Assembly (NCBI GenBank): GCA_014378705.1
Contig: JACMND010000090.1
Span: 1-33,220 of the forward strand
Direction: 5' to 3'
Length of the DNA stretch: 33,220 nt
From: Pedobacter sp.
GTDB taxonomy: Bacteria > Bacteroidota > Bacteroidia > Sphingobacteriales > Sphingobacteriaceae
A model generated the notes under the pieces. That model was given only the letters and a program-made list of their open reading frames with translations, was not told where the DNA came from and made no database searches. The position numbers and the translations under genes are program-made. Positions 16,291 to 19,717 of the stretch are shown here, one piece after another; position 1 is the stretch's first letter, and the number at the start of each line of letters is the position of its first letter.

Positions 16291-16908
16291 TTATTTATCA
16301 ACAATTACGTAAGATCCCTTAGCTCCCGGAATAGAACCGCTAACTACTAACAAATTTTGTTCTGGATATACTTTTAAAACTTCAAGGTTTTGAATCTTAA
16401 CACGATCTCCACCCATGCGGCCTGCCATACGCATTCCTTTGAATACACGCGAAGGCCATGAAGACGCACCCAATGAACCTGGCGCACGTAGACGATTATG
16501 CTGTCCGTGGGTTTGCCCACCTACACCGCCAAAGCCATGACGTTTTACCACACCCTGGAAACCTTTACCTTTTGAAGTACCAACTACATCAACAAAATCC
16601 CCGGCGACAAAAATGTCAACGGTCACGGTATCTCCCAAACTTTTTTCATCAACAAACGTCTTAAATTCGACAATCTTGCGTTTAGGAGTCGTATTTGCTT
16701 TCGCGAAATGCCCTTTTAAAGGTCCGGATGTATTTTTTTCTTTCTTTTCATCGAAAGCTAACTGAACAGCTGCATAGCCGTCCTGATCAACGGTGCGTAA
16801 TTGCGTTACAACACAAGGTCCAGCTTCGATCACCGTACAGGGAATGTTTTTCCCGTCAGCACCGAAAATGCTGGTCATTCCTACTTTTTTTCCAATAATT
16901 CCTGACAT
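16291..16908 (-). CDS. rplC: 50S ribosomal protein L3 (uL3)
   Basis: L3 is one of the two 50S assembly initiators and reaches toward the peptidyl-transferase centre. The 205-aa product begins [20 protein letters not shown] and carries [20 protein letters not shown] and [20 protein letters not shown]. The Gln methylated by PrmB in E. coli (in QNQTPGK) aligns with Ser here (SSWPSR), so that modification cannot occur. In this genome rplC is the first gene of its transcription unit, not preceded by rpsJ; a good promoter and a structured leader lie upstream. Confidence 0.99.
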
Positions 16909-16926
16909 TTTCTATTTCTTCTTTTG

Positions 16927-16960
16927 TGCCCATCGAAGCAGTAGGGCTTCGTTCAAGGCA
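16927..16960 (-). promoter_or_regulatory. Structured leader hairpin upstream of rplC
   Basis: In the roughly 70-nt predicted leader, an inner 6-bp stem (16934-16939 with 16946-16951, 6-nt loop) is enclosed by an outer 4-bp pairing (16927-16930 with 16957-16960). It lies 19 nt before the rplC ATG. It could be a target for ribosomal-protein feedback, but no known leader motif is recognised. Confidence 0.4.
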
Positions 16961-16984
16961 TTTATAATCCCCTTTAAGGGAGGG

Positions 16985-17015
16985 CAAAGATAGAAAAGTC
17001 TGATTAATTATCAAA
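16985..17015 (-). promoter_or_regulatory. Promoter of the rplC-rplQ transcription unit
   Basis: On the minus strand TTTG (17015-17012), a 19-bp spacer and TATCTTTG (16992-16985) match the Bacteroidota housekeeping promoter consensus perfectly. The predicted start is near 16978, about 70 nt before rplC. This fits the loss of linkage to rpsJ, whose transcript ends at a terminator at 19226-19253. Confidence 0.75.
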
Positions 17016-17206
17016 TACTTAGTGAGTTATTTTGAAATAATACAAAATTAATTTCCGTAAAATTATTTAACTCAGCATATAATTCAGTGGTGAATCCTTA
17101 ACACACAATAAGTAAATTATTAAATTGTCAGTGTTAAAGTTTTGAAGAACTTATCATTAAAGTCTTGATTTAATAACAGAATGCATAAAATCTTAAATAA
17201 CTGAAC

Positions 17207-17233
17207 TTGCAAATACTAATTTTTATAAGTTTG
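17207..17233 (+). promoter_or_regulatory. Possible promoter of the coiled-coil membrane protein gene
   Basis: TAAGTTTG at 17226-17233 is a perfect TAnnTTTG element. The upstream match is only TTGC at 17207-17210, and the spacing (15-16 bp) is shorter than the usual 19-20. The predicted start would leave a leader of only 10-20 nt. The 16909-17248 intergenic stretch otherwise holds the rplC promoter and AT-rich sequence. Confidence 0.35.
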
Positions 17234-17257
17234 GGTTATGTGTTATAAATGATTTTT

Positions 17258-17866
17258 ATGAAATTAAAATTTACGCTTATTCTATTGTTACTAGTAACTG
17301 TTAAGAGTCAGTTCTCTGTTTTGGCTCAAGACAATACCAAATTGATTAATAAGAACCTTTCCAGTCAGTATTCTGAACTTATTTTAAAATCAAAAAACAA
17401 TGATCAGGGTTTTAAAATAATCAATCCAGAAAGGTTATCTACTTTTCAAAACAATCTTGCAGATACAATTAAATCTAAAAACTCTAAAATTTTTGAAATT
17501 CAAGGTAGGATAAATGAGCAGATCAAAACAATAAAATTGCTTAAATCAGAACTAGATTCTGAAAAACAGAATGTTAGTCAGTCAAAATCACTAATAAACG
17601 AAATTAGTCTTTTAGGCATCAGCATTAATAAATCAACTTATACTTGGATTATGTGGGGCTTAGTTATGGGATTAGGTGCGGCTCTTATATTTGTTGTATT
17701 TCAATCTTCAAGCGCACGCAAAGAGGCAAAGTACCGTACCAAATTATTTCATGATCTGTTTGAAGAATTTCAAACTTTTAAAACAAAATCTAATGAAAAG
17801 GAAAAAAAACTTGCAAGAGAACTGCAAACCGAACGAAACCGAGTAGAAGAATTGCTTAAAAAATAA
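17258..17866 (+). CDS. Membrane-anchored coiled-coil protein of unknown function
   Basis: The product of about 202 aa has a cleavable-looking signal peptide (MKLKFTLILLLLVTVKS, then VLAQDN). A periplasmic region with heptad-like helices follows (about 60-115), then one transmembrane segment (about 129-149, WIMWGLVMGLGAALIFVVF) and a Lys/Glu-rich cytoplasmic coiled coil (about 155-202). The architecture resembles a Bacteroidota protein family that I believe is often mislabelled tRNA (guanine-N1)-methyltransferase; no SPOUT or catalytic motif is visible, so I reject that name. I chose the ATG at 17258 because it gives a standard signal peptide; the in-frame ATG at 17249 is possible. It is the only plus-strand gene within the ribosomal region and converges on the tyrA-like gene with a 13-nt gap and no visible terminator. 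Confidence 0.8.
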   Translation: MKLKFTLILLLLVTVKSQFSVLAQDNTKLINKNLSSQYSELILKSKNNDQGFKIINPERLSTFQNNLADTIKSKNSKIFEIQGRINEQIKTIKLLKSELDSEKQNVSQSKSLINEISLLGISINKSTYTWIMWGLVMGLGAALIFVVFQSSSARKEAKYRTKLFHDLFEEFQTFKTKSNEKEKKLARELQTERNRVEELLKK

Positions 17867-17879
17867 CTGTTCCTAGTTT

Positions 17880-19139
17880 TTACTCTATTTGAAGGCGACG
17901 GATTAATTCTGCACTTTTTTCCCTGCCGTGGACCAAACGATCCGCAAAAAACATTTTGGTTTCATCAAAATGTTTCTTGTATCCTTCTTGGTCTCCGTAA
18001 AAAATTATTGAAGACCATTCAAGAACTGCCGAGTGAAATTCCAAATCATCATTGCGAATGGTTTTATCAAATAGCGCCGTTTGTATAGACTCTTCAAGGA
18101 GATCCTCATTCTTAAAAAGGTATTCGGCGATTCCAAGCCGAAGCCGGAAGGGCGGAGTCTGGCAAATAAGATTATCGTAGGGATTTACCTCTAAATGAAA
18201 CCATGCATCAACCATGCTTAATAAACTTAAATGGGAATTGGGTTTAAAATTTTGATGATGATCTGAAAGAGAAAATTCTTTCATAATCTTGTCATCAAGC
18301 ATTAAAGGCTTTCGGCTCTCATGAAATACAAAATCACGGGCTTGATAAAGTCTTTCCCTAAACTCCAGTTCTTCTTCTTTAATCATTAGCTTAAAAAGAG
18401 AAGACACTGATTGAGCATAACTCTTAACATGCTGGCGTGCGTATGGATTTAATATGGCTAATCCACTATAAATGTGAGATTTGTAACTGAATATCCTAAG
18501 CGTAGTTAAAATTTTAACGTTATCAATCCCACCTAAATAAGACCCGTTTTCCCAGGGAAAAAAACCTGCGCTTTTCCATGCGGATCCCATGCTCTCAAAT
18601 CCAACATGGGTAACAGCCTGGGTATCGGCTACAATTTTATCGTGTTCATGATAATCAGGTATTTCTACCATATCTGATCCTAATAAAGAAAGCACATCTG
18701 TCATCCGTTGATACGCCTCTTTGGTAGTTCTATGCGGGATTACCACCAGTTTTTGCCCTTTTGGATCAAACGCAGGGCCATGCAATGAATGACATGTAAT
18801 AATATTTACATCCTTGGGAAGATACTTTTCAAAGGCTTCAATTTCCGGGTGCTTTACGGATGTCTGCCCGGCTACAATAGCTCCGTATTTAGTTGATGGA
18901 CCATAAAGCTGAACCACGTTGGTAATTTTATCCGATTCAACAGAATAAAAAATGATGTCACATCTGCGGGACACCTCCTTGCCATCAAATAAAACTTCAA
19001 TTCCCAAAGGTTCGAGCTCTTCCTTTAGTTTTTCACGATGCTGGGGCATATCACACCCGAAAACCCTGTAACCGGCTCTAGAAAAAGCTTTTGCGTAAAC
19101 AATCCCCATATCACCAAGACCTATAACTCCAATTTCCAT
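17880..19139 (-). CDS. Prephenate dehydrogenase, fungal TYR1-like
   Basis: Prephenate dehydrogenase makes 4-hydroxyphenylpyruvate for tyrosine synthesis, in the cytosol. The 419-aa protein begins with a Rossmann dinucleotide-binding motif (GLGDMG at 7-12, with CD at 29-30 ending the second strand). HSLHGP at 117-122 holds the catalytic-type His; ADTQAVTH lies at 171-178, PNSHLSLL at 300-307 and PYDNLICQTPPFRL at 320-333. These blocks and the overall length match yeast Tyr1 as I remember it much better than the roughly 280-370-aa bacterial TyrA or the chorismate mutase fusions. No ACT or AroQ domain is seen. It lies between the rpsJ terminator and rplC, unrelated to its neighbours, and is a transfer candidate. 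Exact cofactor (NADP or NAD) is not decided by sequence reading. Confidence 0.85.
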   Translation of the reverse strand: MEIGVIGLGDMGIVYAKAFSRAGYRVFGCDMPQHREKLKEELEPLGIEVLFDGKEVSRRCDIIFYSVESDKITNVVQLYGPSTKYGAIVAGQTSVKHPEIEAFEKYLPKDVNIITCHSLHGPAFDPKGQKLVVIPHRTTKEAYQRMTDVLSLLGSDMVEIPDYHEHDKIVADTQAVTHVGFESMGSAWKSAGFFPWENGSYLGGIDNVKILTTLRIFSYKSHIYSGLAILNPYARQHVKSYAQSVSSLFKLMIKEEELEFRERLYQARDFVFHESRKPLMLDDKIMKEFSLSDHHQNFKPNSHLSLLSMVDAWFHLEVNPYDNLICQTPPFRLRLGIAEYLFKNEDLLEESIQTALFDKTIRNDDLEFHSAVLEWSSIIFYGDQEGYKKHFDETKMFFADRLVHGREKSAELIRRLQIE

Positions 19140-19225
19140 CTTTAAAGTATTTATTTGGTGCAGTTAAACATAAGGGACAAATTGAAGTACGTTGAAAATA
19201 GAATAACCTTCTCTTAAACTTGAAA

Positions 19226-19253
19226 AGGCCGTCATAAATAGATATGACGGCCT
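19226..19253 (-). terminator. Terminator after rpsJ
   Basis: A perfect 11-bp stem (19226-19236 with 19243-19253) with a 6-nt loop is followed on the minus strand by a short T-run (TTTT). It lies 24 nt beyond the rpsJ stop and should end the rpsL-rpsG-fusA-rpsJ transcript before the tyrA-like gene. Confidence 0.75.
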
Positions 19254-19276
19254 CTTCTGTGTTGTTATATCAAAAG

Positions 19277-19582
19277 CTATACTTTTATTTCTACTTCAAC
19301 CCCACTTGGTAATTCAAGCTTCATTAATGCATCGACAGTTTTAGAATTAGAACTGTAAATATCTAACAGGCGTTTATAAGCGCATAACTGAAATTGCTCA
19401 CGTGCTTTTTTGTTTACATGCGGAGAACGTAAAACAGTGTAAATTCTCTTTTCTGTAGGCAATGGAATAGGTCCGCTAACTACCGCACCCGTAGGCTTAA
19501 CAGTTTTTACGATTTTTTCGGCAGATTTATCTACTAAGTTGTAATCGTACGATTTTAATTTGATTCTGATACGTTGGCTCAT
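19277..19582 (-). CDS. rpsJ: 30S ribosomal protein S10 (uS10)
   Basis: S10 is in the 30S head and doubles as NusE in transcription antitermination. I start it at the ATG at 19582 ([20 protein letters not shown], 101 aa). The frame stays open 33 codons upstream, but that part has no homology-like features. Signature [20 protein letters not shown] is present. In most Bacteroidota, to my knowledge, rplC follows directly; here a terminator and two other genes intervene. Confidence 0.98.
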
Positions 19583-19717
19583 TTTTTTGTTTAGTTTATG
19601 GATATCGTTAGAGCTATTTATAACGAAAACCTGATTATTTATTTGATTTCGAGGCAAAAAACAAGGGTCATGAAGAATCAATTATCCTTATTCTTTACTC
19701 TCTTATCCTAATTCCAA

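Follow-up and report, generated by a model that had tools for sequence, protein, structure and literature searches.

A predicted fungal-type prephenate dehydrogenase with a putative tandem dimerisation domain in Sphingobacteriaceae

A TyrA-like gene in the rpsJ-rplC junction

The window analyzed here is a 33,220-nucleotide stretch of Pedobacter sp. DNA (contig JACMND010000090.1), for which a preliminary description had reported a 419-residue open reading frame (ORF) between the ribosomal protein genes rpsJ and rplC. The ORF is real and occupies exactly positions 17880-19139 of the minus strand, an orientation that the description had not given, and it does lie between rpsJ and rplC, both of which are also on the minus strand (Table 1). 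Across the same interval, the first frame of the plus strand contains stops throughout. All of the short blocks previously listed for the protein (HSLHGP, ADTQAVTH, PNSHLSLL and PYDNLICQTPPFRL) are present in the translation. Given that 34 relatives align with the protein at 58-84% identity, and that prephenate dehydrogenase models match it, the ORF is far beyond chance expectation, and it encodes a real, unusual and well-conserved TyrA, probably of the fungal type. An atypical base composition was considered and rejected, as the G+C content of 39.4% for tyrA compared with 38.2% for the window gives no signal.

Table 1. Features at and around the tyrA-like gene (positions are those of the window)
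Feature	Position	Strand	Basis
tyrA-like gene, 419 aa, predicted fungal-type prephenate dehydrogenase	17880..19139	-	ORF, profiles, model, alignment
NAD(P)-binding Rossmann domain (PDH_N), residues 1-160, motif GLGDMG	18660..19139	-	Pfam, alignment
First helical dimerisation domain (predicted), residues 163-293, R215 = E. coli R294	18261..18653	-	hhalign, model helices
Second, divergent copy of helical dimerisation domain (predicted), residues 295-419	17883..18257	-	hhalign with shuffle and decoy controls
205-aa ORF, unknown family and function, unrelated to tyrA	17249..17866	+	frequent tyrA neighbour in family
rpsJ	ORF 19277-19681	-	NCBIfam match from residue 34; ATG at 19582
rplC	16291-16908	-	profile match
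rpsJ-rplC junction segment, 2,368 bp, tyrA and 205-aa ORF	16909..19276		ORF layout
Hairpin of 11 pairs in the rpsJ-tyrA interval, a possible terminator but uncertain for the rpsJ direction	19226..19253		terminator scan

In the direction of transcription, fusA and rpsJ are located upstream of tyrA, and rplC, rplD, rplW and rplB downstream. The scan rates the hairpin between rpsJ and tyrA as terminator-like on the plus strand only, the T-run on the minus strand is short, and four terminator-like sites were found compared with 2.0 expected by chance; from the sequence, it is possible that tyrA is transcribed separately from rpsJ. At gathering thresholds, tRNA was the only Rfam match.

The junction was compared across 43 loci that have both rpsJ and rplC within the flanks, taken from L051-L130 and L223-L277. 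The gap between the two genes measures 52-309 bp in four of these, none of which contains tyrA, and 2.4-11.5 kb in the remaining 39. The tyrA gene is found inside the gap in 35 of the 43 loci, representing at least six genera (labels g1, g2, g3, g12, g15 and g205), and the four wide gaps that lack it belong to genomes in which no TyrA was found (G005 and G015), in which tyrA is elsewhere (G001), or in which a canonical TyrA is elsewhere (G023). L097 has an rplC fragment only, and L085, L086 and L089 have fragments of both genes. Of one set of 20 junction stretches, seven show both genes and 13 reach a contig end or show no rplC within the stretch. Homologues of the 205-aa ORF lie near tyrA in either orientation, at 32-57% identity where measured, and are neighbours in 63 of 80 named loci (80 of 127 being listed) and inside the junction in 36 of 43. 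In 45 of the 80 named loci, rpsJ or rplC falls within the fetched flanks; none of these ribosomal genes was seen in the fetched flanks of listed loci titled Daejeonella or Pedobacter. The rpsJ-rplC junction is a variable-cargo island within the ribosomal gene cluster.

Previously, the position of the gene in this cluster had been read as a sign of arrival by transfer. This reading is not supported, and location as a sign of recent transfer is rejected, because the same gap carries tyrA in so many loci and genera and can be wide without it. Rather, the recurrence of tyrA in the gap across at least six genera indicates that the location is an old, common arrangement reflecting long residence.

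Passengers in the junction vary and include, among others, a YefM/YoeB pair and rhomboid, TonB C-terminal, phospholipase B-like, thioesterase and glyoxalase-like proteins. At L120 (1-13257), tyrA sits in the rpsJ-rplC gap and is encoded on the other strand from the ribosomal genes, which implies an inversion of either the island content or the tyrA segment.

Domain matches, fold and catalytic residues

The NCBIfam models closest to the window TyrA are PRK08655-type prephenate dehydrogenases (NF006411 and its kin), the best of which scores 2.3e-25 and 89 bits against a cut-off of 464. All NCBIfam prephenate dehydrogenase matches, from 89 to 58 bits, fall far under their curated cut-offs and are confined to residues 1-286, leaving the C-terminal part of the protein unmatched. 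The Pfam PDH_N model (PF02153) scores 24.3 bits by hmmscan, compared with a cut-off of 26.5, and 26.9 bits in the genome search, and the only models above the Pfam cut-off by hmmscan are the general Rossmann models NAD_binding_2 (33.4 bits) and F420_oxidored (30 bits). Across the family, PDH_N is matched by all 35 aligned members (best E 2.6e-7), and PDH_C (PF20463) by only three of the 35 (best E 3e-4). The protein was said to lack chorismate mutase and ACT modules, and Pfam scans bear this out: there is no CM_2 match in the window TyrA, CM_2 in this genome being located on the DAHP synthase protein, and no ACT domain was detected in the window TyrA or in the C-terminal part of 17 members.

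Residues S94, K96, H117 and R215 align with S176, K178, H197 and R294 of E. coli TyrA and are invariant in all 35 aligned members. We take the E. coli residues to comprise the SxK motif, the catalytic His and the substrate-binding Arg. Searched as a single sequence against the PDB, the window TyrA matches 5je8, a 3-hydroxyisobutyrate dehydrogenase, first (4.1e-7) and soybean prephenate dehydrogenase next (1.5e-6); with a profile, the soybean enzyme is clearly first (4.5e-13, residues 1-254), and a lower-ranking match is the H. influenzae T-protein (1.1e-5). An AlphaFold2 model built from 35 sequences (pLDDT 91.2, pTM 0.88), which supersedes an earlier model from 17 sequences (pLDDT 73), was compared with known structures by VIA-align. 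The top twelve rows are all TyrA entries, headed by 4wji (Z 23.2) and closing with 2g5c (Z 20.5), with 5whx (Z 22.1) and 2pv7 (Z 21.4) among them, and other Rossmann dehydrogenases come just behind, such as 3-hydroxyisobutyrate dehydrogenase at Z 20.5 with a larger rmsd. The window protein is a TyrA-fold enzyme with TyrA catalytic residues.

A putative second dimerisation domain

Pfam assigns no family to the last 130 residues of the window TyrA and gives only stray weak matches there in 17 members. Used as a profile against the PDB, the C-terminal piece has its best match in the helical part of 2pv7, at an E value of only 0.42. We compared both helical parts by hhalign with a target built from the dimerisation domains of 15 AroQ-TyrA proteins. 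Residues 160-293 match it over 107 columns (prob 95.1, E 3.3e-8, score 50.7), and residues 295-419 match it over 100 columns (prob 92.4, E 5.1e-7, score 43.7). When the columns of the target were shuffled (n=150 for each copy), the best scores were 24.8 for the first copy and 21.0 for the second. Decoys, consisting of the reversed target, the AroQ domain and seven unrelated families, together with the PDH_N domain against the second copy only, scored at most 21.9 and 18.9, respectively. In addition, the second alignment reported by full-length hhalign spans query residues 164-419 (prob 71.6, E 3.5e-5).

The helical sets of canonical Bacteroidota TyrA, three short TyrA and three other TyrA gave no match to the second copy (prob at most 0.8), and for the first copy the single match among these sets was to the short TyrA, over no more than 20 columns (prob 43). 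Compared directly with each other, the two copies align weakly, over 26-27 columns (E 0.0012-0.0016), and Tyr340 of the second copy stands at the position of the catalytic Arg (E. coli Arg294). The window TyrA reads as a PDH_N domain followed by two divergent AroQ-TyrA-like dimerisation domains. The second copy is predicted to pack on the first as a partner subunit would, forming, we infer, an internal pseudo-dimer with one active site. For comparison, class II ketol-acid reductoisomerase carries a duplicated helical domain, and entry 5e4r is titled domain-duplicated. Like the window TyrA, it joins a Rossmann domain to the duplicated helical domain, and it appears at Foldseek ranks 11-12; however, it is a different enzyme that superposes poorly (rmsd 17-19), and the likeness is an analogy only.

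If correct, the duplicated dimerisation domain would explain the long C-terminus of the fungal-type TyrA and predicts a monomer, or internal pseudo-dimer, in place of the TyrA homodimer. PDB sequence searches returned no close solved relative of this type, and the window protein would give it a bacterial representative amenable to study.

Relationship to other TyrA enzymes

AroQ-TyrA, the type represented by E. coli TyrA, the H. influenzae protein 2pv7 and some Bacteroidota proteins, shares with the window TyrA a homologous core (hhalign prob 99.3, E 4.1e-20), the catalytic residues and the fold, and both helical parts of the window TyrA match its single dimerisation domain. Nevertheless, the window TyrA has no chorismate mutase domain and two dimerisation domains instead of one, and the cores are only 19-25% identical. 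The canonical TyrA of Bacteroidota, of ~280 aa and adjoining an aminotransferase in several genomes, is expected to catalyze the same reaction. Its PDH_N homology extends over residues 2-180 of the window TyrA (hhalign E 2.7e-12), whereas core identity is 12-17% and the helical parts are unmatched.

For the trees, 19 of the 35 aligned members were combined with a selection of TyrA from outside the family. The 44-sequence tree resolves the 19 members as a clade (UFBoot 100), which three short TyrA of ~240 aa join at 91, followed by AroQ-TyrA at 100. The identification of the protein as a TyrA type outside ordinary Bacteroidota TyrA, made in the preliminary description, therefore stands on a tree made up of database sequences only.

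The comparison with fungi uses a provisional yeast Tyr1 sequence that does not come from a database entry and has 452 residues, the length expected of Tyr1. Tyr1 is prephenate dehydrogenase (NADP+), EC 1.3.1.13, and stands for the 'fungal type' referred to here. The window TyrA is 48% identical to this provisional sequence (203/423, 387 bits, 10 gap positions), the core reaching 51% and the C-terminal part 42%, compared with 12-25% between its core and those of 25 other TyrA. In this comparison, the two proteins are collinear over their full length, C-terminal part included, and both lack chorismate mutase and ACT domains. In contrast to Tyr1, the window protein is bacterial, is 33 residues shorter, and has Tyr where the provisional sequence has Asn at the position of E. 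coli Q298. Adding the provisional sequence gave a 45-sequence tree in which the family and Tyr1 are split from the 25 other TyrA by a branch of 1.75 (UFBoot 100), and the split of the family from Tyr1 itself has a UFBoot of only 53. The lists of PDB matches, from single-sequence and profile searches alike, contain no fungal Tyr1. Since the Tyr1 sequence is provisional, the likeness to yeast Tyr1 noted previously, with its 48% identity over 423 columns, is a strong lead and not a database result. The sections of PMC5681985 considered here place fungal TyrA in one clade with gammaproteobacterial, archaeal and Chloroflexi TyrA, which fits the AroQ-TyrA affinity of the window family; Sphingobacteriaceae are not named in those sections.

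Distribution of the fungal-type and canonical enzymes

With the window protein as query, the fungal-type TyrA was found in 23 of 60 relatives, in every case with at least 59% identity. Among 395 sampled Bacteroidota genomes, nine, each a member of Sphingobacteriaceae, score at least 655 bits, and 63 others match at 53 bits or less; AroQ-TyrA was the closest protein for 17 of the 21 weak-match loci examined. A family profile detected, at E 1e-10 or better, members in 81 of 249 relatives (708-847 bits), again all Sphingobacteriaceae. The profile searches of genomes covered Bacteroidota. A scan of one genome per species requires exact peptide matches and is only moderately informative; it yielded the 127 confirmed loci of which 80 are listed. 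The relatives that share 58% identity or more make up a family with sharp bounds, which the three Bacteroidota searches recovered only in Sphingobacteriaceae. In plasmids, tblastn returned three records, all with less than 27% identity to the window TyrA, and no relative was found in viral contigs using the profile, a motif pattern or the provisional Tyr1.

A strong canonical PDH_N match (101-146 bits) is present in 15 of the 60 relatives, none of which has the fungal type. The 37 Sphingobacteriaceae among the 60 comprise 23 with the fungal type, seven with the canonical type and seven with neither. In the genomes compared, the fungal-type and canonical TyrA are mutually exclusive. In an EF-G/S10 tree of 40 genomes, the canonical holders G023 and G026 branch early, and the canonical holders G022, G034, G035 and G036 nest among the fungal-type holders, with several nodes weak. 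The nesting of these four genomes calls for more than a single event of gain or loss, so that later loss, renewed gain or a long period of coexistence belongs to the history of the fungal-type TyrA. The aminotransferase that adjoins canonical tyrA in G022, used as query, was detected at E 1e-90 or better in five of 41 genomes, namely G022 and four of other families, and at this threshold in none of the 20 genomes of the window's genus.

Canonical TyrA in the Sphingobacteriaceae genomes G022, G026, G035 and G036 has an aminotransferase partner and no pheA in the stretch, and in G047 the gene order is pheA-aminotransferase-tyrA (loci compared: L240, L242, L244, L245 and L250).

Origin and role of the window TyrA

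The genome search detected a single PDH_N match in the genome of the window; the question of whether another tyrA exists, raised in the preliminary description, was thus answered by finding no second PDH_N match. The genes for PDT, DAHP synthase-chorismate mutase, EPSP synthase and chorismate synthase are together at one other locus of this genome, and tyrA is not among the genes of that locus. As the sole TyrA found in the genome, the enzyme would convert prephenate and NAD(P)+ to 4-hydroxyphenylpyruvate by oxidative decarboxylation, and a transaminase would then yield tyrosine.

We consider it probable that a fungal-type prephenate dehydrogenase with a tandem dimerisation domain displaced the canonical TyrA anciently, early in the Sphingobacteriaceae. 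The family would have acquired the gene early through transfer, with a fungus or some relative of the lineage of the fungal enzyme as the most likely donor, and the gene would have taken the place of the canonical aminotransferase-tyrA pair. Inheritance afterwards may have been mostly vertical, often within the variable rpsJ-rplC island. The broader proposition, that a TyrA passed between fungi and the common ancestor of the main Sphingobacteriaceae and displaced the resident enzyme, and that the type is defined by the tandem duplication of the dimerisation domain, with one chain imitating the usual dimer as class II ketol-acid reductoisomerases do, we hold to be evenly balanced.

The long stem of the family, at 1.7 substitutions per site, would also suit a third, unsampled lineage that gave the gene to both fungi and Sphingobacteriaceae, or an old paralogue kept in few places, and the deep search covered Bacteroidota only. 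Weighing against such a source, the titles in the 80 listed loci of 127 are Sphingobacteriaceae-like or unspecific Bacteroidota, with the exception of Flavihumibacter soli, whose match has the same coordinates as that of G012, a genome in the genus of the window (g1). We regard this origin as unlikely, if the most plausible of the alternatives to transfer from the fungal side. Somewhat less likely still is transfer in the reverse direction, with the duplicated-domain type arising in bacteria and being received by an early fungus. The helical domains of the window TyrA resemble those of bacterial AroQ-TyrA, whose core is a clear homologue, as such an origin would have it; however, among the Bacteroidota sampled the type is restricted to one family, in a phylum with canonical TyrA, which makes an old origin inside Bacteroidota unlikely.

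The specificity position of the plant enzymes, residue 222, aligns with F217 of the window TyrA, or with Y219 if it is the equivalent of E. coli Q298, and both residues are non-acidic. In the sections of PMC5681985 considered here, a non-acidic residue at this position goes with prephenate. As the residue is non-acidic in both alignments, prephenate is the best guess for the substrate. An arogenate or dual-specificity dehydrogenase is improbable on the same residues, although TyrA specificity is not safely readable from sequence and the predictor of PMC1173090, in the part considered here, places yeast in the arogenate group.

It is very unlikely that the likeness to fungi is in part an artefact of the provisional Tyr1 sequence and the protein just a divergent AroQ-less Bacteroidota TyrA: the provisional chain is the only fungal sequence in the comparison, but it has the length expected of Tyr1 and differs from the window TyrA at about half of its positions, and the tree sets the family far apart from each of the 25 other TyrA.

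Should the fungal link be borne out, the family would provide a clean inter-domain replacement of a central biosynthetic enzyme, one that has gone to fixation across much of a bacterial family. The kind of enzyme is itself known, and the points of interest are the duplication, the bacterial distribution and the displacement of canonical TyrA. Among the literature matches listed (title and start of abstract), there is no report of the enzyme in Sphingobacteriaceae or of the domain duplication, and a search of papers for motif strings of the window TyrA found none.

A biopterin-dependent hydroxylase domain is present in the genome of the window and in 15 of 19 other genomes of the genus. Such a hydroxylase might make tyrosine from phenylalanine, in which case tyrA may not be essential. 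Four of the 20 genomes of the genus (G005, G008, G013 and G015) have neither the fungal-type nor a strong canonical TyrA, and the hydroxylase domain is present in three of the four; these genomes may therefore obtain tyrosine by hydroxylating phenylalanine or by taking it up. The hydroxylase matches (G000 C2:5146-5952 and those of relatives) comprise two separate stretches of an ORF of ~600 aa, and the corresponding frames in G039 and G045 are ~250 aa.
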